64,000 bases of DNA from the NCBI RefSeq assembly GCF_040802235.1, contig NC_133169.1:44337034-44401033 (forward strand), in the 5' to 3' direction. Origin of the DNA: Manis javanica. Lineage: Eukaryota > Chordata > Mammalia > Pholidota > Manidae. Position numbers and translations under genes: made by a program. Below, piece by piece: positions 5,651 through 57,594 of this stretch (the first letter of the stretch is position 1; the number at the start of each line of letters is the position of its first letter). Under the pieces are notes generated by a model that saw only the letters and a program-made list of their open reading frames with translations, did not search any database and was not told where the DNA came from.

Positions 5651-5666
5651 TAAGTTTTTTTTTTTT

Positions 5667-6139
5667 GTGAGAGGGCATCTCTCATATTTATTGATCAAAT
5701 GGTTTTTAATAACCATAAAATCCTGTATAGGGGACTCAATGCTCAATGTACAATCATTAATCCACCCCAAACCTAACTCTCATCAGTCTCCAATCTTCTG
5801 ATGCATAACAAACAAGTTCTTACATGGTGAACAAATTTTTACATACCGTATCTTAGTTCATTTTCTGGGTAGCCCAATTAGGTGTTGATCCTCTGTATAA
5901 ACACAAACAGACCCTTTGCCCACACTTTGATATGCCCTTTATACCATTGTGTAGAACTCATTGGAGGTCACCACACAGGAACTGCTTTTTTTTTTCTAGA
6001 GAAAGGAATATTATCAGAAAAATATACCTCCATAGCTGATCATCTGACACCCATTAAGTGATCAAAATTAAGGATATTTAAAGCATGCATTAATCATTGA
6101 TTTACAATTAGTTTTATCCTATTAGGGAGTACTCCCCCA
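5667..6139 (-). mobile_element. Retrovirus-derived 3' tail of L1 copy 2 (deleted form)
   Basis: This segment is homologous to parts of the tail of L1 copy 4 (52883-54634). Its lower-coordinate part (5667 to about 5840) matches the U3-R-like end, including AATAAA (minus-strand reading of 5687-5692) about 20 nt before the poly(A). The rest (about 5845-6139) matches the integrase-end-like portion. The block between them in copy 4, which holds Env TM, the polypurine tract and most of U3 (about 53042-54345), is absent here. The junction to ordinary L1 3'UTR is an A-rich stretch at 6139-6165, the same place as in copy 4. Confidence 0.75.
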
Positions 6140-6489
6140 TTTCTTTCTTTCTTTATTTTTTGTTATCATTAATCTACACTTACATGAAGAATATTATATT
6201 TACTAGGCTCTCCCCTATACCAGGTCTCCCCTATAAACACCTTTACAGTCTCTTTACATCAGCATAGCAAAATGTTGTAGAACCACTTGTCTTCTCTGTG
6301 TTGTACAGCCCTCCCCTTTCTCCCACCCCTGCTTTATGCATGCTAATCTTAATACCCCCTTTCTTCTTCCCCCCCCTTATCCTTCCCTACCCACCCATCC
6401 TCCCCAGACCCTTTCCCTTTGGTACCTGTTAGTCCATTCTTAGGTTCTGTAATTCTGCTGCTGTTTTGTTCCTTCAGTTTTTCCTTTGT

Positions 6490-9400
6490 TCTTATACTCC
6501 ACAGATGAGTGAAATCATTTGGTATTTCTCTTTCTCCGCTTGGCTTATTTCACTGAGCATAATACCCTCCAGCTCCATCCATGTTGCTGCAAATGGTAGG
6601 ATTTGCCCTCTTCTTATGGCTGAGTAATATTCCATTGTGTATATGTACCACGTCTTCTTTATCCATTCATCTACCAATGGACATTTAGGTTGCTTCCAAT
6701 TCTTGACTATTTTAAATAGTGCTGCGATAAACTTAGGGGTGCATCTGTCTTTTTCAAACTTGATTGCTGCGTTCTTAGGGTAAATTCCTAGGAGTGGAAT
6801 TCCAGGGTCAAATGGTAAGTCTGTTGTGAGCATTTTGAGGAACCTCCATACTGTTTCCACAATGGTTGAACTAATTTACATTCCCACCAGCAATGTAGGA
6901 GGGTTCCCCTTTCTCCACAACCTCGCCAACATTTGTTGTTGTTTGTCTTTTGGGTGGTAGCCATCCTTACTGGTGTGAGGTGATACCTCATTGTAGTTTT
7001 AATTTGCATTTCTCTGATAATTAGCGATGTGGAGCATCTTTTCATGTGTCTGTTGGTCAACTGTATTTCTTTTTTGGAGAACTGTCTGTTAAGTTCCTCT
7101 GCCCATTTTTTAATTGGCATTTTTGTTTTTTGTTTGTTGAGGAGTGTGAGCTCTTTAAATATTCTGGACTTCAAGCCTTTATCGGATCTGTCATTTACAA
7201 ATATATTCTATCATACGGTACGGTACCTTTTTGTCCTATTGATGGTGTCTTTTGCTCTACAGAAGATTTTCAGCTTAATATAGTCCCACATGTTCATATT
7301 TGCTGTTGTTTTCCTTGCCCGGGGAGATATGGTCAAAAAGAGGTCACTCATGTTTATGTCTAAAAGGTCTTTGCCTATGATTTTTTCTAAGAGTTTTATG
7401 TTTTCATGACTAACATTCAGGTCTTTGATCCATTTTGAATTTACTTTTGTGTAGGGGGTTAGTCACTGGTCCAGTTTCATTCTCTAACATGTAGCTATAC
7501 ACTTTTTCCAGCACCATCTGTTGAAGAGACTGTCATTTTGCCATTGTATGTCCATGGCTCCTTTATCAAATATTAATTGGCCATATATGTGTGGGTTAAT
7601 GTCTGGAGTCTCTAATCTGTTAGACTGGGTTGTGGCTCTGTTCTTGTGCCAGTACCAAATTGTCTTGATTACTATGGCTTTATAGTAGAGCTTGAAGTTG
7701 GGGAGTGAGATCCCCCCCAAGTGATTCTTCTTTCCCAGGATTGCTTTGGCTATTCAGGGTCTTTGGTGTTTCCATATGAATTTTTGAACTATTTGTTCCA
7801 GTTCATTGAAGTATGTTGCTGGTAATTTGATAGGGATTGCATCAAATCTGTATATAGCTTTGGGCAGGATGGCCATTTTGACGATATTAATTCTTCCCAG
7901 CCATGAGCATGGGGTGAGTTTCCATTTGTTAGTGTCTCCTTTAATTTCTCTTAAGAGTGACTTGTAGTTTTCAGGGTATAGGTCTTTCACTTCATTGGTT
8001 AGGTTTATTCCTAGGTATTTCATTTTTTTGATGCAATTGTGAACAGAATTGTTTTCTGATTTATCCTTCTATTGGTTCATTGTTAGGGTATAGGAAAGCC
8101 ACAGATTTCTGTGTGTTAATTTTGTACCCTGCAACTATGCTGTATTCCAATATCAGTTCTAGTAGTTTTGGGGTAGAGTCTTTCGGGTTTTTTATGTACA
8201 ATATCATGTCATCTGCAATTAGTGACAGTTTAACTTATTCTTTACCAATCACAAATCCTTGTATTTCTTTGTTCTGTTTAATTACCATGGCTAGGACCTT
8301 CAGTACTATGTTAAATAACAGTGGGGAGAGTGGGCATCCCTGTCTAGTTCCCGATCTCAGAGGAAAAGCTTTCAACTTCTCGCAGTTCAGTGTAATGTTG
8401 GCTGTGGGTTTGATATATGGCCTTTATTTTGTTGAGGTACTTGCCCTCTATACCCATTTATTCTGAGAGTTTTTATCATGAATGGATGTTGAATTTTGTA
8501 AAATGCTTTTTCAGCATCTATGGAGATGATCATGTGGTTTTTATTTTTCTTTTTGTTGATGTGGTAGATGATGTTGATGGATTTTCGAATGTTGTACCAT
8601 CCTTGCATCCCTGGGATGAATCCCACTTGGTCATGGTGTACAATCTTCTGATGTATTTTTGAATTCGGTTTGCTACTATTTTGTTGAGTATTTTTGCATC
8701 TACGTTCATCAAGGATATTGGTCTGTAGTTTTCTTTTTTGGTGGGGTCTTTGCCTGGTTTTGGTATTAGGGTGGTGTTGGCTTCATAGAATGAGTTTGGG
8801 AGTATTCCCTCCTCTTCTATTTTTTAGAGAACTTTAAGGAGAATTGGTATTGTATCTTCACTGTATGTCTGATAAAATTCCGAGGCAAATCCATCTGGCC
8901 AGGGGGTTTTGTTCTTTGGTAGATTTTTGGTTACCGCTTCAATTTCATTGCTTGCAATTGGTCTGTTTAGATTTTCTGTTTCTTTTTGGGTCATTCTTGG
9001 AAGGTTGTGTTTTTCTAGGAAGTTGTCCATTTCTCCAAGGTTTCCCAGCTTGTTAGCATATAGATTTTCATACTACTCTCTAATAATTCTTTGTATTTCT
9101 GTGGGGTCCATCGTGATTTTTCCTTTCTTGTTTCTGATTCTGTTGATTTGTGTTGACTCTCTTTTCCTCTTAATAACTCTGGCTAGAGGCTTACATATTT
9201 TGTTTATTTTCTTGAAGAACCAGCTCTTGGTTTCATTGATTTTTCATTAATCTTCTCAAATTTATTTATTTCTTCTCTGATCTTTATTATGTCCCTCCTT
9301 CTGCTGACCGTAGGCCTCATTTGTACTTCTTCTTCCAATTTAAATAATAGTGACATTAAACCATTAATTTGGGATTGTTCTTCCTTCTCTAAATATGCCT

Positions 9401-10334
9401 GGATTGCTGTATACTTTCCTCTTAAGACTTCTTTTGCTGTATCCCACAGTAGTGGGGCTTTGTGTAGTTGTTGTCGTTTGTTTCCATATATTGCTGGATC
9501 TCCATTTTGATTTGGTCATTGACCCATTGATTATTTAGGAGCATATTGTTAAGCCTCCATGTGTTTGTGAGCCTTTGTACCTCCATGTGTGTGCTTTCTT
9601 TGTACCATTTATTTCTAGTTTTATGCCTTTGTGTTCTGTAAAGTTGGTTGGTAGGATTTCAATCTTTTGGAATTTACTGAGGCTCTTTTTGTGGCCTAGT
9701 ATGTGGTCTATTCTGGAGAATGTTCCAAGTGCACTTGAGAAGAATGTGTATCCTGTTGCTTTGAGATGTAGAGTTCTGTAGATGTCTATTAGGTCCATCT
9801 GTTCTAGTGTGTTGTTCAGTGCCTCTGTGTCCTTACTTATTTTCTGTCTTGTGGATCTGTCCTTTGGAGTGAGTGGTGTGTTGAAGTCTCTCAGAATGAA
9901 TGCATTGCAGTCTATTTCCTCCTTTAGTTCTGTTAGTATTTGTTTCAGATATGTTGGTGCTCCTGTATTGGGTGCATACATATTTATAATGGTTATATCC
10001 TCTTCTTGGACTGAGCCCTTGTAATGTCCTTCTTTATCTTTTGTTACTTTCTTTATTTTGAAGTCTGTTTTGTCTGATACTAGTATTGCAACACCTGCTT
10101 TTTATCTCTGTTGTTTGCATGAAATATCTTTTTCCATCCCTTGACTTTAAGTCTGTGCATGTCTTTGGGTTTGAGATGAGTCTCTTGTAAGCAGCATGTG
10201 GATGGATCTTGCTTTTTCATCCATTTCATTATTCTGTGTCTTTTGATTGGTGCATTCAGTACATTTACATTTAGGGTGATTATTGAAAGGCTTGTACTCA
10301 TTGCCATTGCAGGCTTTAAGTTTGTGGTTACCAA
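6490..10334 (-). pseudogene. L1 ORF2p pseudogene, copy 2
   Basis: All ORF2 domains are present on the minus strand but scattered over several frames. The endonuclease is in 10334-10080 and 9981-9535 (DFN, RIDH and a final TEH in place of SDH). The RT palm is around 8712-8180, with the catalytic pair preserved in a LIADDM context near 8207-8220 instead of LFADDM. The C-terminal segment with the CWRGCGE..H..WEC Cys/His pattern is at 7174-6788. The usual start codon position reads ACA, so the initiator is lost. It ends near 6490 with the ISLICGV terminus typical of this lineage. Confidence 0.9.
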
Positions 10335-10454
10335 AGGTTCAGGGTTAGCTTCTTTACTATCTTACTCTATAACTTAACTCGCTTGTTGAGCTATTATAAA
10401 CATGGTCTGATGATTCTTTATTTCTCTCCCTTCTTATTGCTCCTCCTCCCTTTT

Positions 10455-11361
10455 TCATATGCTGGGTGTTTTGTGCTGTGCTCTTTTTAGGAGTGCTCCC
10501 ATGTAGAGAAGTCCCTGTACGATGCCCTGTAGAGGTGGTTTGTGGGAGGCAAATTCCCTCAACTTTTGCTTGTCTGGGAATTGTTTAATCCCTCCTTCAT
10601 ATTTAAATGATAATCGTGCTGGATACAGTAGTCTTGGTTCTAGGCCCTTCTGTTTCATTGCATTAAGTATATCATGCCATTCTCTTCTGGCCTGTAGGGT
10701 TTCTGTTGAAAGTCTGATGATAGCCTGATGTGTTTCCCTTTGTAGGTGACCTTTTTTTCTCTCTTCCTGCCTTTAATACTTTGTCCTTGTCTTTGATCTT
10801 TGCCATTCTAATTATTATGTGTCTTGGTGTTGCCCTCTTTGGATCCCTTGTCATGGGAGTTCTCTGTACCTCTGTGGTCTGAGAGGCCATGTCCTCCACT
10901 ACTTTTGGGAAGTTTTCAGCAATTATTTCTTCAAAGACACTTTCTATCCCTTTTTCTCTCTCTTCTTCTTCTGGTACCCCTATAATGCCGATACTGTTCC
11001 GTTTCTATTGGTCACTCAGCTCTCTTAGAATTCTTTCATTCCTGGAGATCCTTTCATCTCTCTCTGCATCAGCTTCTCTGCATTCCTGTTCTCTGTTTTC
11101 TAGTCCATTAATGGTCTCTTGCATCTCGTCCATTCTGTTTTGAAGTCCTTCCAGAGCTTGTTTTATTTCTGTATTCTCCTTCCTTAGTTCTTGCATATTT
11201 CTCTGCAAGTCCATCCGTATGGTTATAACTTTTGTTTTGAATTCTTTTTTAGGAAAACTGGTTAAATCTATCTCCCCAGGTTCCTTCTCAGGGGAAGATG
11301 TAGCAGATGCTGAAGCTGTCTGGGTTAGTCTTGTCTGGATCAAATTTTTTTGCCTTTTCAT
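10455..11361 (-). pseudogene. L1 ORF1p pseudogene, copy 2
   Basis: ORF1p is the coiled-coil RNA chaperone of L1. The start is the ATG at 11361 (MKRQKN). A heptad-rich coiled coil fills roughly residues 40-115. A stop at about 11005 ends the first frame; the RRM-like part continues in another frame at 10899-10672 (TPRHIIIRMAK) and the C-terminal domain at 10658-10455 (MKQKGLEPRLLYPARLSF). Order and spacing match ORF1 of copies 1 and 3. The stop and frameshifts make it a pseudogene. Confidence 0.9.
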
Positions 11362-12163
11362 TTTTTCATGTTGGTAGGTGCTATTGACTGTCAGCTGGGA
11401 GATCCAAACCTTCCACTTGCTACTGTCCTTTCTGTACTGGGACAACTGCGACCCCTAGTGGCTTGTGTTGGGTAATAGCATGTAGACTGGGTCTTTGTGT
11501 CTTGCCCGGCCCATATGTAGGAAGCTCCCTTGCTAACAGCATGGCCAGCCGCAGGCTGCTTCTCTGCTATAGCCATGTCCTTGAGGGGTAGTGGACGGGG
11601 GGCTGTTTGGCTGTTTACCTCTGTGAGGTGTCTCAGAGCTGTTGCCCAGGGGGTTAGTGTGCCCGGGTTTCCCTGAAATTTCCAGCTTCTGGACTGTGAC
11701 ATGGGTTGTTTCCTTCCAGCTGTTGCGTCCCTGCCCCTTTATGACTTTCAAAAAGCACTCGCTTTTCTTTGTCACTTGGGCATCAGCTTCGAGACCCGCT
11801 CAGATGTCTTGCTGCCCTGTTTCCCTAGTTTTCAGCCCTCCATGCATGCACTGTGTCTGCGCTCTGGTGCGGATGTCTGGGGCTGGGTGTTTAGCAGTCC
11901 TGGGTTCCCTCTCCCTCCCCGCTCTGACTCCTCTCCTCCTGCTGGTAGCTGGGGTGAGGGGCGCTCGGATCCTGCCAGGCCGGGGCTTATATCTTACCCC
12001 TTTCACCAGGCCCTGGGCTCTCACATGTGTGGATGTAGTCTGGCAGTTGTCCTGTGTCTTCTGGTCTCTCTTTTAGGATTAGTTGTACTTCCAAAAATAC
12101 ATATGTTTTGGGGAGGAGATTCACACTGTCCTACTTATGCCCCCATCTTGGCTCCACCTCTGG
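11362..12163 (-). promoter_or_regulatory. 5'UTR / internal promoter region of L1 copy 2
   Basis: This GC-rich, CpG-containing block lies upstream of L1 ORF1. In L1 sense it begins near 12163 with GGAGCCAAGATGG, the kind of start seen in L1 5'UTRs, and the same start is seen for copy 4 at about 57580. L1 5'UTRs carry an internal RNA polymerase II promoter. Long open frames here on both strands are a composition effect, not genes. Confidence 0.7.
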
Positions 12164-23050: not shown

Positions 23051-26000
23051 TTGATAATCACGAATCTAAAGCCTGAAATGTCAATAAGTACATACCTATC
23101 GATAATCACAGTAAATGTAAATGGAATGAATGCACCAATCAAAAGACATAGAGTCACTGAATGGATTAAAAAACAAGAGCCATCTACATGCTGCTTACAA
23201 GAGATTCACCTCAAACCCAAAGACATGCACAGACTAAAAGTCAAGGGATAGAAAAATATATTTCATGCAAACAATAGGGACAAAAAAGCAGGTGTTGCAG
23301 TACTAGTATCAGACAATAGACATTAAAACAAAGAAAGAAACAAGAGATAAAGAAGGACACTATATAATGATAAAGGGCCAAGTCCAACAAGAGGATATAA
23401 CCATTATAAATATATATGCACCCAACACAGAAGCACCAGCATATGTGAAACAAATACTAACAGAACTAAAGGAGGAAATACAATGCAATTAGTTCATTTT
23501 AGGAGACTTCAACACAACATTCACTCCAAAGGACAGATGTGCCAGACAGAAAATAAGTAAGGACACAGAGGCACTTAACAACACACTAGAACAGATGGAC
23601 CTAATAGATATCTATAGAACTCTACATCCAAAAGCAACAGGATACACATTCTTCTCAAGTGCACATGGAACATTATCCCGAATAGACCACATACTAGGCC
23701 ACATAAAGAACCTCAGTGAATTCCAAAAGATTGAAATTCTACCAACCAACTTTTCAGACACAAAGAAATAAAACTAGAAATAAATTGTACAAAGAAAGCA
23801 AAAGGGCTCAGAACACATAGAGGCTTAACAACACGCTCTTAAATAGTCAATGGATCAACGATCAAATTAAAATGGAGATCCAGCAATATATGGAAATAAA
23901 TGACAATAACAACACAAAACCCAAACTTCTGTGAGACGCAGCAAAAGCAGTCTTAAGAAGAAATTATATAGCAATCCAAGCATATTTAAAGAAGGAAGAA
24001 CAAACCCAAAAGAACAGTCTAACATCACAATAATCAAAATTGGAAAAAGAAGAACGAATGAGGCCTAAAGTCAGCAGAAGGAGGGACATAATAAAGATAA
24101 GAGAAGAAATAAATAAAATTGAGAAGAATAAAACAATAGAATAAAATCAATGAAACCAAGAGCTGGTCCTTGAGAAAATATACAAAATAGATAAGCATCT
24201 AGCCAGACTTATTAAGAGAAAAGGAGAATCAACACACATCAACACAAGAATCAGAAACGGGAAAGGAATCATCATAACAGATCCAAAAGAAATAAAAAGA
24301 ATTATTAGAGACCACTAAGAACACCTATGTGCTAAGAAGCTGGAAAACCTAGAAGAAATGGACAACTTCCTAGAAAAATACAATCTTGGAAGGTTGCATT
24401 TTTCTTGGAAGGAAGAAACACAAAATCTAAACAAACCAATTACCAGCAAAGAAATTGAAGCGGTAATCAAAAAACTACCCAAGTACAAAACCCCCAGGCC
24501 AGAAGGACTTATCTCGGAATTTTATCAGACAGACAGGGAAGACATAATACCCATTCTCCTTTAAGTTTTCCAAAAAATAGAAGAGGAGGGAATACTCCCA
24601 AAGTCATTCTATGAAGCCAACATCACCCTAATACCAAAACCAGGCAAAGACCCCACCAAAAAAGAAAACTACAGACCAATATTCCTGATGAACATAGATG
24701 CAAATATACTCAACAAAATATTAGGAAACCGAATTCAAAAATATATCAAAAGGATCGTACACCATGACCAAGTGGGATTCATCCCAGGGATGAAAGGATG
24801 GTACAACATTCGAAAATCCATCAACATCATCCACCACATCAACAAAAAGAAAGACAAAAACCACATGATCATATCCATAGATGCTGAAAAAGCATTCGAT
24901 AAAATTCAACATCCATTCATGATAAAAACTCTCAACAAAATGAGTATAGAGGGCAAGTACCTCAACATAACAAAGGCCATACATGATAAACCCACAGCCA
25001 ACATCATACTGAACTGTGCAAAGCTGAAAGCTTTTCCTCTGAGATTGGGCATAAGACAGGAATGCCCACTCTCCCCACTGTTATTCAACATAGTACTAGA
25101 TGTCCTAGCCATGACAATTAGACAAAACAAAGAAATGCAAGGCATCCAAATTGGTAAAGAAAAAGTTAAACTGTCACTATTTGCAGATGACATGATATTG
25201 TACATAAAAAACCCTAAAGACTCCACTCCTAAACTACTAGAACTAATATTGCAATACAGCAAAGTTGCACAATACAAAATTAACACACAGAAATCTGTAA
25301 TTTTCCTGTACACTAACAATGAACTAATAGAAAGAGAAATCAGGAAAACAATTCCATTCACAATTGCATCAAAAAGAATAAAATACCTAGGAATAAACCT
25401 AACCAAAGAAGTGAAAGACCTATACCCTGAAAACTATAAGACACTCTTAAGAGAAATTAAAGAAGTCACTAACAAATGGAAACTCATCCCATGCTCTTAG
25501 CTAGGAAGAATTAGTATAGTCAAAGCAATATACAGATTAGATGCAATCCCTATCAAATTACCAATAACATTCTTCAACAAACTATAACAAATAGTTCAAA
25601 AATTCATATGGAAACACCAAAGACCCCAAATAGACAAAGCAGTCCTGAGAAGGAAGAATAAAGTAAGGGGGACCTCGCTCCCCCACTTCAAGCTCTACTA
25701 CAAAGCCACGGTAATTAAGACAGTTTGGTACAGGCACGGAACAGAGCACAGACCAGTGGAACAGAATAGAGACCCCAGATATTATCCCAAACATATATTG
25801 TCAATTAATATATGATAAAGGAGCCATGGACATACAATGGGGAAATAACAGTCTCTTCAACAGATGGTGCTGGCAAAACTGGACAGTTACATGTAAGAAA
25901 ATGAAACTGGATCACTGTCAAACCCCATACACAAATGTAAATTTGAAGTGGATCAAAGACCTGAATGTAAGTCATGAAACCATAAAACTCTTAGAAAAAA

Positions 26001-29400: not shown

Positions 29401-29940
29401 GGTTGGGCATTGTGGTTTGACTGAGCAGGGGGTCAACGTCCCCACCTTGGGGGACATATTGGGGACCAGAGGCCACATGTAGAATTAGCAATTCATTGGT
29501 CCTCTGTGAATGTACAATGTGTCCTTGCCCTGGTGGACAAAGGAGCTGAGCGTTCTCTGATTTACGGCAACCCTGAGCGTTTTCTTGGGACCCCCAGTGT
29601 GATAGATGGCGATGGGGATAAAGCAAGTAGAGTGAAGAAAACCCAAATCTCATTGATAGTATGGTGTTTACCCCCAAAGAAGTATACCATGTACATTTCT
29701 CCCATCCCTGAGTATATTTTGGGTGTAGATACCCTGCAGGGCCTGTGGTTACAGACCACCGCAGGTGAGTTCAGACTGAGGGTACATGTGGCGAAGGCCG
29801 TTCTGAGGGGACCTGCTAAGCACCCACCTGCAGCTCTGCCTGTACCTCAGTGGGTGACAAGTACTAAGCAGTATAAATTGCCCGGCGGCACAGGAAATGG
29901 AGAAACTCTACAGAAGTCGAAGAAGGGGGGCATCATATAG
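29401..29940 (+). pseudogene. ERV protease remnant
   Basis: This corresponds to the retroviral aspartic protease. The active-site triad reads LVDKGAERSLIYG at about 29535-29570, with DTG changed to DKG, so it would be catalytically dead. A later block ISPIPEYILGVDTL fits the C-terminal protease hallmark. The open stretch ends at 29938-29940 just before RT sequence, with the linker PQWVTSTKQYKLPGG. Confidence 0.7.
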
Positions 29941-44666: not shown

Positions 44667-44871
44667 CATAATCCGACAGGGGGACTCAGCACTCCTGTCC
44701 ATACCACGTTCCATGTTAACTACTCAGTAGTGGTGATAAGCCGAGAAGACCAAGACTAATGACTGACCTTTCCTACACTTGGAGGGACAATTTTATGAAT
44801 TAGAAGAAAAACTGTTTCAAGGAAAATATTCAAGGTGATATCCTAAATGGTTTGGGGAATCATGTACTTCA

Positions 44872-44896
44872 TGGTTTACTCCTTTTGTTTTCCAGA
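44872..44896 (+). promoter_or_regulatory. Putative 3' splice site before an OR14-like coding exon
   Basis: A pyrimidine-rich run ending TTTTGTTTTCCAG at about 44884-44895 lies 20 nt before the ATG at 44916. Similar tracts precede both other OR14-like copies (33528-33550, and minus strand 60785-60775, TTTTCTAG). OR genes usually have a noncoding 5' exon spliced just before the coding exon, so the conservation is meaningful. Confidence 0.5.
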
Positions 44897-44915
44897 TCAG
44901 CCAGCATTTCAAGAA

Positions 44916-45843
44916 ATGGCTAATTCTACAGTGACTGAGTTTCTCCTCATGGGCTTTGCTGAGAAGAGGGAGATAAGGCTCCTGTTCTCCCTGCTATTCC
45001 TTCTGATGTACCTGGCCACCCTCACAGGGAACATTCTTATCATCAGTGCCACCACAGTTGACCAGAACCTTCACACGCCCATGTACTTCTTCCTCAGGAA
45101 CCTGTCCATCCTAGACGTGTGCTATGTTTCTGTCACTGTCCCCAGGGCCTGTGTCAACTCCCTCACTGACAACAGGGCCATTTCAGTGGCTGGCTGTGCA
45201 ACTCAGATATTACTGGTTATTTATTGTATGTATGTGGAGCTCCTGTTCCTCACCATCATGGCCTGTGACCGCTATGTGGCCATCTGCCAGCCCCTCCGCT
45301 ACCCCGTCATCATAACCCACCAATTCTGTGTCTGGACAACACTGGTCTCCCTGCTCAGTGGCCTCATCTATGCAGGTGTGCACACAGGGAACACATTCCG
45401 GCTGTCCTTCTGCAAGTACAATGTGGTCCTTCAGTTCTTCTGTGACATCCCTTCTCTGCTGAGCCTCTTCTGCTCTGACACCTTCAACAACTTTATATTA
45501 CTTGTTGTTTCTGCCATATTGATTGGTTGTGGTATTTTACATTTATCACTGTGTCATATATTTACATATTTTCCACTGTGCTGAAGTTTCCAGTCAAGGA
45601 GAGAGGAAAGGCCTTCTCCACCTGTGTCCTTCCCATTCTGGTGGTGTCTGTCTTCCTCAGTTCCACCAGCTCTGTGTACCTAAGGCCTTCAGGAGCCTCT
45701 GACATTCTCCAGGGAGTGGTTTTTACTCTATGTTATACAATAGTTCCTCCATTCTTGAATCCTATTATCTACAGTCTTAGAAACACACAGGTAAAGGAAG
45801 CAGTAATGAAAGTAATATTAAGGAAATATTATTCAGGAAGTTA
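44916..45843 (+). pseudogene. Olfactory receptor, OR14-like (copy B), one frameshift
   Basis: This odorant GPCR would be about 310 residues, normal for the family. The ATG at 44916 begins MANSTVTEFLLMGFAE, with an N-glycosylation site (NST). TM1 has GNILII; TM2 HTPMYFFLRNLSILDVCYVS; TM3 end MACDRYVAICQPLRYP with an intact DRY; the TM5-6 loop STVLKFPVKERGKAFSTC; TM7 NPIIYSLRNTQV. The frame breaks once, near 45530-45545 in TM5: the downstream part is open in the -1 frame to the stop at 45842-45844. Compared with the copy at 60.1 kb, one base appears to be missing. I see no other lesion, so this is either a very young pseudogene, a segregating null allele, or an assembly error. Confidence 0.88.
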
Positions 45844-52571: not shown

Positions 52572-52838
52572 TTACAACCACTGCCAGAGGAAAGGGTGAG
52601 ACGTCAGGGAAGCCAGTCTGCCCATTTCAGAAACCGACATAACAGTATTTTCCACCTCCACATCTGAGAGATGCAAAAGCCATGTAGGCAGGGGTTCCAA
52701 AGGCTTGTACCAAAACTGGATGCTCATTTCTACCAGCTCACCCTGGGTGTAGGAGTGGAGCATGGAGGGCTCCAGAGCCTGGAGAGGGGGTGGCTCCTCG
52801 TCTGGAAGAGCCACAGTTGTTGTGTTTTTATCTTCTTT
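52572..52838 (-). pseudogene. ERV gag remnant (minus ERV)
   Basis: An open minus-strand stretch with a Pro-rich start (EEPPPLQALEPSMLHS) and QGELVEMSIQFWYKPLEPLP, homologous to 28570-28800 of the plus-strand ERV. In ERV sense it continues from 57590 across the L1 insertion, and runs directly into integrase at 52564. Confidence 0.65.
52825..52837 (+). repeat. Target-site duplication, left copy (L1 copy 4)
   Basis: TTTTTATCTTCTT here is repeated exactly at 57582-57594, bracketing L1 copy 4. The host sequence on both sides is ERV gag in one orientation. Confidence 0.9.
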
Positions 52839-52845
52839 TTTTTTT

Positions 52846-52882
52846 ATTACATATGAGTAGAAGTAGTTCATTTATTTTTTTT
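52846..52882 (-). other. Putative short 3' transduction of L1 copy 4
   Basis: In L1 sense the first A-run (reverse of 52875-52882) is followed by AATAAATG and about 25 nt of non-L1 sequence, then the real terminal poly(A). This is the layout of a 3' transduction: transcription passed the first poly(A) site and used an AATAAA just beyond it. Confidence 0.55.
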
Positions 52883-53162
52883 GAGAGGGCATCTCTCATA
52901 TTTATTGATCAAATGGTTGTTAACAACAATGAAATTATGTATAGGGGACTCAATGCACAATCATTAATCAACCCCAAGCCTAATTCTCAACAGTCTCCAA
53001 TCTTCTGAAGCATAACAAACAAGTTCTTACATGGTGAACAGTGTAAGGGCAGTCATACCACAGAAACTTCCAGTTTTGATCACGCATCATGAACAATGAA
53101 CAATCAAGTCAGATATGATTATTCGTTTGATTTTCATACTTGATTTATATGTGAATCCCACA
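52883..53162 (-). terminator. U3-R-like segment with poly(A) signal
   Basis: 280 nt from the putative U3 start to the poly(A). AATAAA (reverse of 52901-52906) lies 18 nt before the A-run. It acts, or acted, as the poly(A) signal of the chimeric L1. The same end is found at 5667-5840 in copy 2. Confidence 0.65.
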
Positions 53163-53178
53163 TTTCTCCCTTATTATT
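53162..53178 (-). promoter_or_regulatory. Polypurine tract and U3 start
   Basis: On the minus strand AATAAGGGAGAAA (tract AAGGGAGAAA, 53172-53163) is followed directly by TGTGGGATTCACA (from 53162). A purine run abutting a TG is how retroviral plus-strand priming sites meet U3. It sits downstream of the Env TM remnant, as expected. Confidence 0.6.
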
Positions 53179-53789
53179 ATCATTATTATTTTAATAAAAT
53201 GCTGAAGTGGTAGGTAGATGCAAGATAAAGGTAGAAAACAATTTAGTGCTGTAAGAGGGCAAATGTAGATGATCAGGTCTCTGCCTATAGGCTAAATATT
53301 AATCCAACCTAGACTAGGGCAACAAAACATCCACGGATGCTGAAGATTGCTCTCAAAACAGGGGTGGTAGTGAAGTTCTAAGCCTCACCTCTGTTGATCC
53401 CCAATTTCTCATCTGATGGACCCCTGCAACTGTGCCTGTCTTAGGTTCTTCCTCCCTTGAGGAGTCTTACCCATCTCTGACTAACCAGTTGTCTTCCGGG
53501 GCCATACAGGGAAATGTAAAGTTGGTAAGTGAGAGAGAAGCAATATTGTTTGGAAAGGTTAGCTTTTTATTTCTTTGCAGATTTATGCCCTGTGGCTTCT
53601 ATGCCCAGCATTTGTCCTGAGGTATCTTTACCACTTGGAAGAATTATGATACTCAGTAATTTTCTATATGAGACACGAATTCTACTAAAGGGTTGTAATT
53701 AGGAAGGAAGAAGAAAAGCTATAGAAGTAGCAAACGGAAAAAAACATGGGAAGATTGATTATTTCTTTGACATATCTTCTTGTAGAGTA

Positions 53790-54256
53790 ACATAAGCATG
53801 TATAGGTTTTAACAAACTACTAATTAAATTGTGTATACCCATTAACAGAATAGGAATATAGATACATAACAAAAGCAGACCTACAATTACCAGTCATATC
53901 CAGTGAAACCAAGAAAACCAGTTAGGTACCCTAGGCATTTGTGAAAACTTATCAATGATATGATGGATATTGTCTAATTGAATTTGAATAGTTTGAGAAA
54001 AATCAGACAAATTAAAACAACACATTCCTGGGAACTGTTCACATCACATATGTTCTTTTAATAGTAGATAGTCTATAGTCACACGATTTCAGAGCACTTC
54101 AACTTGCACTTCTCCTAATTCTTGGTTGAGTTCTGACAACATAGATCCAGTCAAATTTGCTGTTTTACTGTATGCACAGGCCAGCTTAGATGTCTCCTTC
54201 TTCATTCCAATGGCAAGTCCAGGAACCAGTGGGATGAATGCAGCTACAACTGCAAC
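53790..54256 (-). pseudogene. Decayed retroviral Env TM subunit inside the L1 tail
   Basis: A single minus-strand frame, read through three TGA stops (54091-54089, 54046-54044 and 53896-53894), has the layout of a gammaretrovirus-type TM fusion subunit. It shows a hydrophobic fusion-peptide-like start (VAVVAAFIPLVPGLAIG), a heptad-like region (SELNQELGEVQVEVL), a C-x6-CC motif at 54043-54017 with the LLLKE-type run before it, a Trp-rich pre-membrane patch (NWFSWFHW) and a membrane helix at 53893-53822. All motifs are in register in one frame, which makes chance very unlikely. The stops and lack of SU mean it encodes no functional Env. Confidence 0.8.
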
Positions 54257-54641
54257 AGTGCCAGGATATTTGTTGAAGTATTTTGATGATCATCTTCTGG
54301 AATGACTCTTCCAGACGATGTTGATGTTGGAAGTTCTTCTACATATTGTATCTTAATTCGTGTTCTGGGCAGCCAAATTAGGCTTGGATCCTCTGTATAA
54401 ACACAAACAAAGCCTTTGCCCACACTTTGATGTGACTACTACAACATTGTGAAGAACCTATTGGAGATTATCACACAGGAACTGCTTTTTTTAAGGGAAA
54501 GAAATATTATCAGAAAAATGTACTTCCATAGCTGATCATTCAACACCGTATAAAAGATCAAAACTAAGGATATGTAAAGCATGCATTAATCATTTATTTG
54601 CAGTTAATTTTATCCTAGCAGGGAGTAATAACCCCTTTTTT

Positions 54642-55335
54642 GTTATTAATCTACAATTACATGAAGAATATTACATTTACTAGGCTATCCCCTACACCGA
54701 GACCCGCCACAAAACCCATTACAGTCACTGTCCATCAGCACAGCAAAATGTTGTAGAATCACTACTTGTCTTCTCTGTGTTGCACAGCCATCCACTTTCC
54801 CCTACCCCCCACATTATACATGCTAATCATAATACCCCCTTTCTTCTTCCCTGCCCTTATCCCTCCCTACCCTCCCATTCTCAACAGCCTCTTTCCCTTT
54901 GGTAACTGTTAGTCCCTTCTTGGGTTCTGTGATTCTGCTTTGGTTTTGTTCCTTCAGTTTTTTTCTTTGTTCTTATACTCCACAGATGAGTGAAATCAAT
55001 TGGTATTTGTCTTTCTCCACTTGGCTTATTTCACTGAGCATAATATCCTCTAGCTCCATCCATGTTGTTGCAAAAGGTAGGATCTGTTTTCTTCTTATGG
55101 CTGAATAATATTCCATTGTGTATATGTACCACATCTTCTTTATCCATTCATCTACTGATGGACACTTAGCTTACTTCCAATTCGTGACTATTGTAAATAG
55201 TGCTGCGATAAACATGCGGATGCATCTGTCTTTTTCAAACAGGAGTGCTGCGTTCTTAGGGTAAATTCCTAGAGGTGGAATTCTTGGGTCAAATGGTAAG
55301 TCTATTTTGAGCATTTTGAGGAACCTCCATACTGA
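54642..55335 (-). mobile_element. L1 copy 4: ORF2 C-terminal end and ordinary 3'UTR
   Basis: Minus-strand L1 with the conserved CACTGAGCATAATATCCTCT and ATTCCATTGTGTATATGTAC blocks, and a 3'UTR matching copy 2 at 6140-6850. The tail-free part ends at the A-rich junction. Confidence 0.88.
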
Positions 55336-55344
55336 TTTCCACAA

Positions 55345-56195
55345 TAGGTGAACTTCTTCAGTATGGAATCAGTATGGAGGTTCCTCAGAATGCTCAAAAT
55401 AGAAATACCATTTGACACAGCAATTCCACTTCTAGGAATTTACCCTAAGAATGCAGCACTCCAGTTTGAAAAAGACAGATGCACTCCTATGTTTATCGAT
55501 GCACCTAATGTTCATTTAAGCTCAGCAACCTAAATGTTCATCAGTAGATGAATGGACAAAGAAAATGTGGTACATATACACAATGGAATATTATTCAGCC
55601 ATAAGAAGAAAAACAGATCGTACCATTCACAACAACATGGATGGAGCTAGAGGATATTATGCTCAGTGAAATAAGCCAAGCAGAGAAGTACAAGTTCCAA
55701 ATGATTTCACTCATATGTGGAGTATAAGAACAAAGGAAAACTGAAGGAACAAAACAGCAGTGGAATCACAGAACCCAAGAATGGACTAATAGGATGAATA
55801 GAAATACCATTTGACCCAGGAATTACACTTCTAGGAATTTACCCTAAGAGTGCAGCACTCCAGTTTGAAAAAGACAGATGCACCCCTATGTTTATCACCT
55901 TTGTTACCAAAGGGAAAGGGACTGGGGATGACAGGTGGGAAGGCAGGGATAAGGGTGAGGAAAAAGAAAGAGGGCATTACAATTAGCATATATAGTGTGT
56001 GGGGGACATGGGGAGGGCTGCGCAACACAGAGAAGTCAAGTAGTGATTTTACAGCATCTTACTACGTAGATGGACAGTGACTGTGAAGGGGTATGTGTCA
56101 GGGACTTGGTGAAGTGGGGTACCTAGTAAACATAATGTTCTTTCTGTAATTGTATATTAATGATACCAAAATTGGAGAATTGATAAAGGAAAAAT
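55345..56195 (+). mobile_element. Inverted L1 3'-end inside copy 4
   Basis: Plus-strand ORF2 C-terminus plus 3'UTR, ending near 56195 with GAATTGATAAAGGAAAAATAAA. It is the ordinary tail-free type. It lies head to head with 54642-55335 and forms a long imperfect palindrome centred near 55340. A ~105-bp ORF2 segment (55380-55490) recurs at 55797-55900, where normally 3'UTR would be continuous. Confidence 0.85.
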
Positions 56196-56204
56196 AAACT
56201 CTGT

Positions 56205-56765
56205 CCTTGTCCTTTGTCTTTGCCATTTTATTTATTATGTGTCTTGGTGTTGTCCTCCTTGAGTCCTTTCTGTTGGGAGTCCTGTGTACTTCCATGGTCT
56301 GATCGATTATTTTCTCCCCCAGTTTGGGGAAGTTTTCAGCAATTATTTCTTCAAGGACACTTTCTATCCCTTTTTCTCTCTCTTCTTCTTCTGGTACCCC
56401 TATATTGTGGGTATTGTTCCTTTTGGATTGGTCACACAGTTCTCTTAATATTGTTTCATTCCAGGAGATCCTTTTATCTCTCTCTTTGTCAACTTCTATG
56501 CGTTCCTGCTCTCTGGTTTATATTCCATCAATGGCCTGTTGCAACAAAATCCTTCCAGAGTTTGTTTCTCTTCTGTAATCTCCTTCTGGACATCTGTAAT
56601 CTCCCTCCAGACTTCATCCCTTAGCTCTTGTATATTTTGCCTCATCTCTGTCAGCATGTTTATGATTTTTACTTTGAATTATTTTTCAGGAAGACTGGTT
56701 AGGTCTGTCTCCTTCTCAGATGTTGACTCTGTGATTTTTGTCTGCCTCAAATTTTGCCTTTTCAT
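56205..56765 (-). pseudogene. L1 ORF1p pseudogene, copy 4
   Basis: The start is the ATG at 56765 (MKRQNLRQTKITEST). The coiled coil is present, then the RRM with NIHNIGVPEEEE-like and HRTPNRKDSRRTTPRH (56295-56098 frame). It ends abruptly at about 56205 at KDKD, where the inverted L1 piece begins. A stop interrupts it near 56680. Confidence 0.85.
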
Positions 56766-57581
56766 GGTGATAGAGATAGTTTTCAGAGCTGGCACGAGTG
56801 ACGGCTGGAAGAATATTCCTTCTTTTAGGTTTGTGGCCTTCCTCTCCTGGGAGAACAGCCACCTCTAGTGGCTTATGCTGGGCAGCTATGTGCAGATGGG
56901 GCTTCTGTTTCTTGCTTGGCCACTATGGAGTTTATCTCTGCTGTTGCTGTGGGTGTGGCATGCCTCTTGCTGCTGTTCCCATATGGCGGAGTCTGTGTTG
57001 GAGGGGGAACAGCTGGGAGGCTGTTTATCTCCATGAGGGGCCTCTGAGCTGCCCTGCTATCCAGGGGTTTAGGGTGCCCAGAGTTCCCTTCTGCTGGACC
57101 AAGTGTCCTGGGATGCTTTCGTTTGGCTGTGGGGTACCTGTCCCTTTAAGACTTCCAAAAAGCACTCACTTTTCTTTGTCCCTGGGGCACTGGCTGCAGG
57201 GACCCCTGCACAGGTCTTACTGTCCTGTTTCCCTAGTATCCAGCACCCCACACATGCACTGTGTCTGCAGTCTAGTGCGGATGGCTAGGGATGGCTATTT
57301 AGCAGTCCAGGGCTCCCTCTCCCTATCTGCTCTGACTCCTCTCCTCCCACCAGGAGCTGGGGTGTGGGGTGCTCCGGACCTGCTGGGCTGCAGCTTGTAC
57401 CTTGCCCCCTTCGTGAGGCACTGGGTTCTCGCAGGTGTGGATGTAGTCTGGTTGTTGTCCTGTACCTTCTGGTCTCTCTTTTAGGAAGAGTTGTTTTTGT
57501 TGTATTTTCAAAAATATATGTGGCTTTGGGAGGAGATTTCTGCTGCTCTACTCACACTGCCATCTTGGCTCTGCCCCTCCT
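56766..57581 (-). promoter_or_regulatory. L1 copy 4 5'UTR
   Basis: GC-rich L1 5'UTR starting in sense at about 57580 with GCAGAGCCAAGATGG, close to copy 2's start. Long frames on both strands are composition artefacts. Confidence 0.7.
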
Positions 57582-57594
57582 TTTTTATCTTCTT
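57582..57594 (+). repeat. Target-site duplication, right copy (L1 copy 4)
   Basis: Exact repeat of 52825-52837 (TTTTTATCTTCTT). Confidence 0.9.

Follow-up and report, generated by a model that had tools for sequence, protein, structure and literature searches.

L1 copies with a retroviral 3' end in the Malayan pangolin: a chimera mobilised as a unit and probably founded by read-through into a provirus

In L1 3' transduction, known from human and other mammals, a downstream flank is carried along when read-through extends to a later poly(A) site, with an A-run between the L1 and the flank and a target-site duplication (TSD) outside of the whole unit. Typically, such a flank is private to a few source loci and does not last long. 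The processed copies of HERV-W are reportedly retroviral RNAs that were copied by the L1 machinery and end at R with a poly(A); they are said to have no L1 joined to them and to have been mobilised in trans. SINE-R was derived from part of env and the 3' LTR of HERV-K10, and SVA is a composite with Alu-like and VNTR parts (available text of PMC3667099). In addition, mammalian L1 lineages recruit new 5' UTRs (available text of PMC5872511, PMC3600994). For pangolins, Pol with RVT thumb and IN_DBD_C domains has been described for ERV-Alpha-Mpen and ERV-Beta-Mpen, a CX6CC TM has been reported for gamma-type Env, and one gamma provirus contains an inserted L1; an L1-ERV chimera is not mentioned in the available text of that study, and the word 'chimeric' is absent from its main text (PMC12584738). 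The available parts of two further studies have no bearing on such a chimera (PMC9604959, PMC1764860). Among the literature matches listed, as far as their titles and the starts of their abstracts go, none concerned an L1 with a retroviral 3' end; an entry in Dfam or Repbase may exist.

The L1 copies described below resemble each of these systems in part. As in L1 3' transduction, the pangolin unit has a flank, an intervening A-run and a TSD outside, and one copy adds a second, ordinary small transduction; unlike in that system, the flank is a retroviral 3' end that has been kept by a lineage (9,647 exact junction-side 17-mers and 17,389 exact 3' ends). As in SINE-R and SVA, a retroviral env part and a 3' LTR with its poly(A) tail form a 3' module that is mobile; unlike in SVA, this module is joined to an L1, which has its full length in some copies, and not to an Alu-like/VNTR composite. 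As in the recruitment of 5' UTRs, a foreign regulatory end is found in a successful L1 lineage, but it is the 3' end and it is retroviral. In contrast to the processed HERV-W copies, the retroviral end is part of an L1.

The window analysed here is a stretch of 64,000 nt from Manis javanica (NC_133169.1, positions 44,337,034 to 44,401,033), and positions are given within it. L1 copy 4, on the minus strand, consists of the L1 5' end (56196–57581) and, with the L1 middle missing, the L1 3' end (54643–55354), both delimited by L1 comparison. As stated in the initial annotation, the copy continues past the L1 terminus, via an A-rich junction (54635–54642), into a retroviral tail (54634 to 52883, minus strand), which terminates with the R end. 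In sense, this tail contains the 3' part of integrase, including the C-terminal domain, and the start of env (54270–54634), after which SU is missing; an env TM remnant with a broken frame (53762–54289); the stretch from the env stop to the LTR (53163–53761; 84% to the provirus 3' end L030, see below); a polypurine tract abutting the LTR start (53163–53172); and U3-R of the LTR (52883–53162; 79–92% to the LTRs L029, L030, and L031), the AATAAA of which ends 18 nt before the A-run. By eye, the TM remnant has what we take to be a fusion-peptide-like and heptad stretch, a CX6CC motif, and a membrane anchor. The components named initially, that is, an integrase C-terminal-like patch, an Env TM, a polypurine tract abutting TG, and a U3-R end with its poly(A) signal, were all found again; in addition, the first ~140 nt of the tail are integrase as well (matching L032, see below), and the lack of SU had not been seen.

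In a window-wide comparison, the tail of copy 4 (54642 to 52883) matched one other place, namely L1 copy 2, in two pieces: 309 nt at 82% on the junction side and 165 nt at 89% at the 3' end. Copy 2, also on the minus strand, is a full-length L1 as judged by its 5' end (6146–12158, start approximate; L1 comparison and flank mapping), followed by the tail with its poly(A) (5655–6145; poly(A) 5655–5666). The alignment places the L1/tail junction at the identical point in both copies (about 6145 in copy 2), and the tail of copy 2 has the same 3' end as that of copy 4 (5669). This agreement had been described before, and the alignment adds an internal deletion of ~1.3 kb in copy 2, between tail positions 158 and 1455. 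Neither this gap nor the SU gap has GT..AG borders (by eye), and splicing was rejected as the cause of the gaps. Copy 3 and an inverted piece (55349–56195) are L1 3' ends without the tail, and tailed and tail-free forms are thus found side by side, as had also been pointed out. Over the last ~700 nt of the L1, 21 sites separate the tailed copies 2 and 4 from the two tail-free ends, compared with 2 and 4 sites for the other two splits; therefore, the tail belongs with one L1 3' subfamily. The inverted piece lies head-to-head in copy 4. Its first L1 position almost coincides with that of the minus-strand piece of this copy, and it has an internal 100-nt duplication (55398–55497 and 55797–55896, 95%). 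Elsewhere in the window, two open frames resemble, by eye, a retroviral protease remnant (29425–29940) and an olfactory receptor (44847–45584).

A strict pattern, the R end followed by a non-A continuation, occurs at three places genome-wide (L029, L030, and L031); because of the strictness of the pattern, there are at least this many LTRs. One of them, L029, stands alone as a solo LTR inside an L1, with GAGGG on either side (by eye). L030 is the 3' end of a provirus with TM, post-env part, polypurine tract, U3, R, and U5, and the arrangement of its polypurine tract matches that of copy 4. L031 is a 5' LTR followed by gag (Gag_p24, 1.6e-13); its positions 1–1500, LTR and gag with the p24 domain, represent, to the extent read, another provirus of the parent family. 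The initial annotation had proposed a search for proviruses with the same U3-R, and the provirus L030 and the LTRs are the outcome. In L032, upstream of L030, RVT_thumb (1.2e-32), RNase H (7e-13), and the integrase core (2.1e-7; 31.5 bits, slightly below the cut-off of 32.6) were detected, and the best PDB match of the reverse transcriptase was 7sr6 (E 1.6e-60), which we take to be HERV-K. The integrase piece of L032 had no match in Pfam and nine PDB matches at E up to 0.001, including 3jca and 7usf, both presumably MMTV, and 1c0m. From these domain matches, the parent provirus is read as probably resembling class II (alpha/beta-like) retroviruses. With its RVT_thumb and ASLV-like TM, it is similar to the pangolin ERV lineages described in the available text of PMC12584738.

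The tail of copy 4 is collinear with this provirus: it starts inside integrase, lacks env SU (a gap of ~0.9 kb relative to L032/L030), and continues with TM, polypurine tract, U3, and the R poly(A) site. The tract abuts TG, and the three full LTRs likewise start with TGTGGG. Profile searches with the window pieces gave far less. Ten sense pieces of the tail yielded two Pfam matches, IN_DBD_C at 0.025 and the unrelated ThrE_2 at 0.018, and ten antisense control pieces yielded one unrelated match (PAR1, 0.031). In the PDB, the integrase piece listed four sequences, three named integrase and one 'Pr160', with a best whole-sequence E of 0.013 and a best single stretch of just 0.98; two antisense pieces gave one unrelated protein at 0.49 and nothing retroviral. 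A 49-aa TM piece matched the ASLV TM weakly (E 0.018). A 66-aa TM piece had no structure match in the same kind of search and eight relatives, all unnamed ENA proteins. Among the ENA relatives, Pfam assigned TLV_coat to P0001 (0.052) and unrelated families to P0003 (ThrE_2 and Enas) and P0007 (IL10, 0.0078). Pfam scores at the level of the window pieces hence do not discriminate, and the window pieces alone are weak. However, the natural protein P0001, which is 70% identical to the 49-aa piece, matches the ASLV TM (5h9c/4jpr) at 1.6e-11. The retroviral reading thus holds mainly because of this match and of the same stretch in a provirus of the same genome; we regard the provirus alignment as firm evidence for a retroviral tail. 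An alternative origin of the first ~140 nt, as a separate earlier transduction with the A-run at 54484–54492 as its poly(A), was rejected, since both are integrase sequence in L032. Rfam and tRNA scans led nowhere.

The site at which the RNA ended can be read from the 3' ends of the copies. Past the R end, the three LTRs read AGCACC or AGTACC. In copy 4, the R end is immediately followed by an A-run (minus strand, 52875–52882), poly(A) is present at the 3' end of both window copies, and at least 8 A directly follow in 13 of 15 genomic loci with a recognised R end (of the other two, L022 is A-rich and L026 is not). This difference between the loci and the LTRs indicates that cleavage of the chimeric RNAs most likely took place at the retroviral poly(A) site. 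In addition, the tail stops at the R end instead of forming a full LTR with U5, TG..CA, and a short insertion-site duplication; since full LTRs elsewhere run into U5, it is derived from RNA and not from the insertion of an LTR. The L1's own terminal AATAAA is present in the tail-free copy 3, in the linker of copy 2 and, by eye, in the young locus L041. Copy 4 and 19 of 20 loci fetched from the genome lack it, and the one of L019 may be due to chance. A tentative reading, which we consider possible, is that a pangolin L1 lineage that is still active uses the retroviral end as its functional 3' UTR and terminator; the L1's own signal would have decayed after the capture and left the retroviral signal in lasting charge.

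How the chimera arose can be approached from the provirus. At the point that corresponds to the junction, L030/L032 contains no L1, and its sequence there, TTATTTATTAAAACGAAAAGGGGG, reads TTATTTATT-AAAACGAAAAGGGGG, with TT|AAAA where the L1 starts replacing it. TT|AAAA is the preference of the L1 endonuclease. According to the reading that we favour and regard as very probable, an L1 was inserted in a provirus, read-through extended to the retroviral poly(A) signal, and the chimera then gave rise to a lasting lineage of L1s that end in retroviral sequence. In detail, an L1 of the pangolin lineage would have landed in the integrase gene of an endogenous provirus, in the sense orientation; the L1's transcripts would have passed the L1's own 3' end and would have been cut at the retroviral R poly(A) site, resulting in an RNA of the form L1-(A)n-IN-TM-PPT-U3-R-poly(A), and env SU would have been lost before, or soon after, the capture. 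This RNA would then have been copied by the L1 machinery via target-primed reverse transcription, presumably in cis, and its descendants would form the lineage. Because the provirus is A-rich at the junction and the linker is short, the exact breakpoint is blurred.

The main competitor concerns the founding step. The L1 reverse transcriptase might have initiated on a retroviral RNA with a poly(A) tail and then switched templates to the poly(A) of an L1 RNA, with the product copied as a unit later on. The start of the retroviral part at an arbitrary point of integrase, behind an L1 3' end and an A-rich linker, would fit such a template jump, and a founding locus with an L1 inside the provirus was not found among the loci examined. 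However, the position of the junction next to the L1-endonuclease-like TT|AAAA in the provirus is predicted by an insertion and is unneeded for a jump. We therefore consider template jumping rather unlikely, and founding by L1 insertion and read-through probable. The initial annotation had proposed read-through into a provirus with use of the LTR poly(A) signal, and the poly(A) at the R end and the relative of the provirus in the genome support this part of the proposal; the founding event itself is one that we infer.

A tail could also be an independent element, SINE-R-like or a provirus fragment, that was inserted separately behind each L1, in which case TSDs would be expected at the junction, as had been pointed out at the start. 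Where TSDs were resolved, however, they lie outside of the whole unit, and none was found at the junction. Copy 4 has a perfect 13-bp TSD (52825–52837 on the 3' side and 57582–57594 on the 5' side, 13/13 identical; in sense AAGAAGATAAAAA, preceded by TT on the 5' side, site TT|AAGA), which lies outside of both the L1 5' end and the tail and the score of which was equalled by 4 of 2,000 random window pairs. Between the R end and the TSD, the first A-run is followed, on the minus strand, by ~27 nt of other sequence (52848–52874) and a second A-run (52838–52847); the first A-run and the adjoining TAAATG together create an AATAAA, which lies ~22 nt ahead of the second A-run. Judged from its sequence and the position of the TSD, this extension is a small second 3' transduction. 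Hence, the retroviral end at 52883 stands as annotated initially, and the inserted unit runs on to 52838. Copy 2 lies within an older L1. Its two flanks correspond to stretches of L1 copy 3 of which one ends at 25593 and the other starts at 25570, and the overlap of ~24 positions represents a decayed TSD. A direct comparison of the two flanks is weak because they are decayed (92 of 2,000 random pairs were equally good).

In the genome, the 3' flanks of 15 loci with an intact R end were scanned against the whole 6.9 kb upstream. A whole-unit TSD was found in seven of them (L009, L010, L011, L014, L017, L025, and L027). The best automatic match lay at the L1 5' boundary for six of these seven and for L016, which was left out of the count because both of its flanks are L1 sequence; for L010, a match of 13/14 at the L1 5' boundary was seen by eye, and the best automatic match was elsewhere. 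The remaining eight loci had no clear whole-unit TSD (L012, L018, L019, L022, L023, L026, and L028, plus L016, which was set aside). When scores at the L1 5' end and at the junction were compared, six of eight testable loci, including L016, reached at least 12 at the 5' end, with a score of 10 or less at the junction; the two exceptions were L019 and L023. A young 5'-truncated copy, L047 with L050, has a 15-nt whole-unit TSD. These results show that the unit is mobilised by the L1 machinery, and the shared junction and the whole-unit TSDs of copy 4, copy 2, and other loci bear out the earlier proposal that the chimera moved as a unit.

The junction itself recurs many times in the genome. A search with positions 54500–54750 through 2,559,957,944 bases on 63 contigs gave 3,657 first-look candidates, and all of the 40 best ones, which were scored and are those nearest to copy 4, cross the junction, the window being among them. 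Twenty of the 39 matches outside of the window were fetched. All of these share the A-rich junction and contain the L1 3' end, seg140, and sequence of the integrase/TM region (in L015 the first 307 nt of the latter alone); the post-env part is present in 18 and U3R in 17 of the 20. The A-rich linker is short in most copies read. The 5' ends vary, with frequent 5' truncation and some full-length copies; L010 and L027 reach the L1 5' end and have a TSD. Genome-wide, an exact 30-mer of the R end followed by A6 occurs 17,389 times (8,707 + 8,682; 0 for the reversed-pattern control), and the 17-mer AAAAGGGGGATTACTCC, which adjoins the junction on the ERV side, has 9,647 occurrences (4,721 + 4,926; controls 0 and 1), a count that may include proviruses with the same letters, as the 17-mer is on the retroviral side. 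On contig C1, 83 places of the 17-mer were listed up to 12.98 Mb; for 44 of these, the listed exact R ends include one 1,749–2,168 nt downstream on the same strand, and for none is there one upstream. The junction is thus not rare, as it would have been had the chimera been an isolated accident of one or two copies, the objection raised initially. In the available text of PMC11825179, repeats account for 1,260.92 Mb (49.25%) and SINEs for 0.96% of a Malayan pangolin assembly.

A separate set of 16 loci was taken by position, from the first 20 listed places of the exact R end with A6, on C1. The L1 junction is present in 12 of them, and four begin inside the tail, namely L035 and the duplicates L037, L039, and L046 of one locus, in which the same 15 nt flank the tail piece on both sides (by eye). 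Tail-only copies therefore exist, as expected of an independent element, but they begin at differing points, as expected from 5' truncation. Together with the identical junction in the tailed copies examined and the TSDs outside of the L1 in copies 2 and 4 and in eight loci elsewhere, this makes a separately inserted tail highly improbable. Some of the C1 loci share flanks (L037/L039/L046, L034/L048, and L040/L043, all in the first 4.6 Mb, which indicates segmental duplications or repeated assembly there), and L036 and L044 are near-identical; this flank sharing would fit a spread of a few chimeric loci by segmental duplication instead of retrotransposition, which is likewise highly improbable, since the other loci differ in flanks, 5' truncation points, and A-run lengths, and separate TSDs are found in eight genomic loci and the two window copies. 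Within this set, the tail of L045 has three U3R units ~370 nt apart, and L036 and L044 have a common repeated block of post-env and U3R in the tail.

The divergence of the copies was compared between the parts of the unit. In the set of sequences closest to copy 4, the medians of the pairwise K2P distances were 0.069 for the L1 3' end (14 sequences), 0.065 for IN-TM, and 0.074 for post-env plus U3R (16 sequences each); incomplete or rearranged loci were omitted (L013, L015, L019, L024, and L026, and for the L1 part also L014, L021, and L023). By this similarity, both halves look the same age. Between copies 2 and 4, the distance in the L1 3' end is 0.133. Six young copies that differ in their 3' flanks (L043, a duplicate of L040, and L045 were left out) have medians of 0.008 for the L1 3' end and 0.013 and 0.008 for the other two parts, with a maximum of 0.035. 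At a substitution rate of ~2.2e-9 per site and year, which is not pangolin-specific, these values span roughly 30 to 2 million years. The chimera has thus persisted as an L1 lineage, the youngest copies of which look recent, and the small distances suggest recent activity of tailed elements. Altogether, the unit is backed by the single shared junction, by TSDs around the whole unit in some of the copies, by the poly(A) that follows the R end, by similar divergence of the parts, by the many copies, and by a relative of the parent in the genome. The second small transduction of copy 4, the deletion of SU, and the scale and persistence of the lineage go beyond the initial annotation; the profile searches that it had proposed gave weak matches (IN_DBD_C, ASLV TM), and the retroviral reading is carried mainly by the provirus.

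L1s are known to swap their 5' UTRs, and a lasting retroviral swap at the 3' end would be a further route of fusion between two classes of retroelements. The retroviral end has been kept from copies 0.133 (K2P) apart to copies ~0.01 apart. The lineage provides a natural experiment on the 3'-end requirements of L1s and on the question of whether their spread is favoured by a viral poly(A) signal. For annotation, it is a warning that many fragments labelled 'ERV env/LTR' in the pangolin genome may be L1 3' ends. If the takeover of the terminator is true, L1 evolution would include the lasting capture of a virus transcription terminator.
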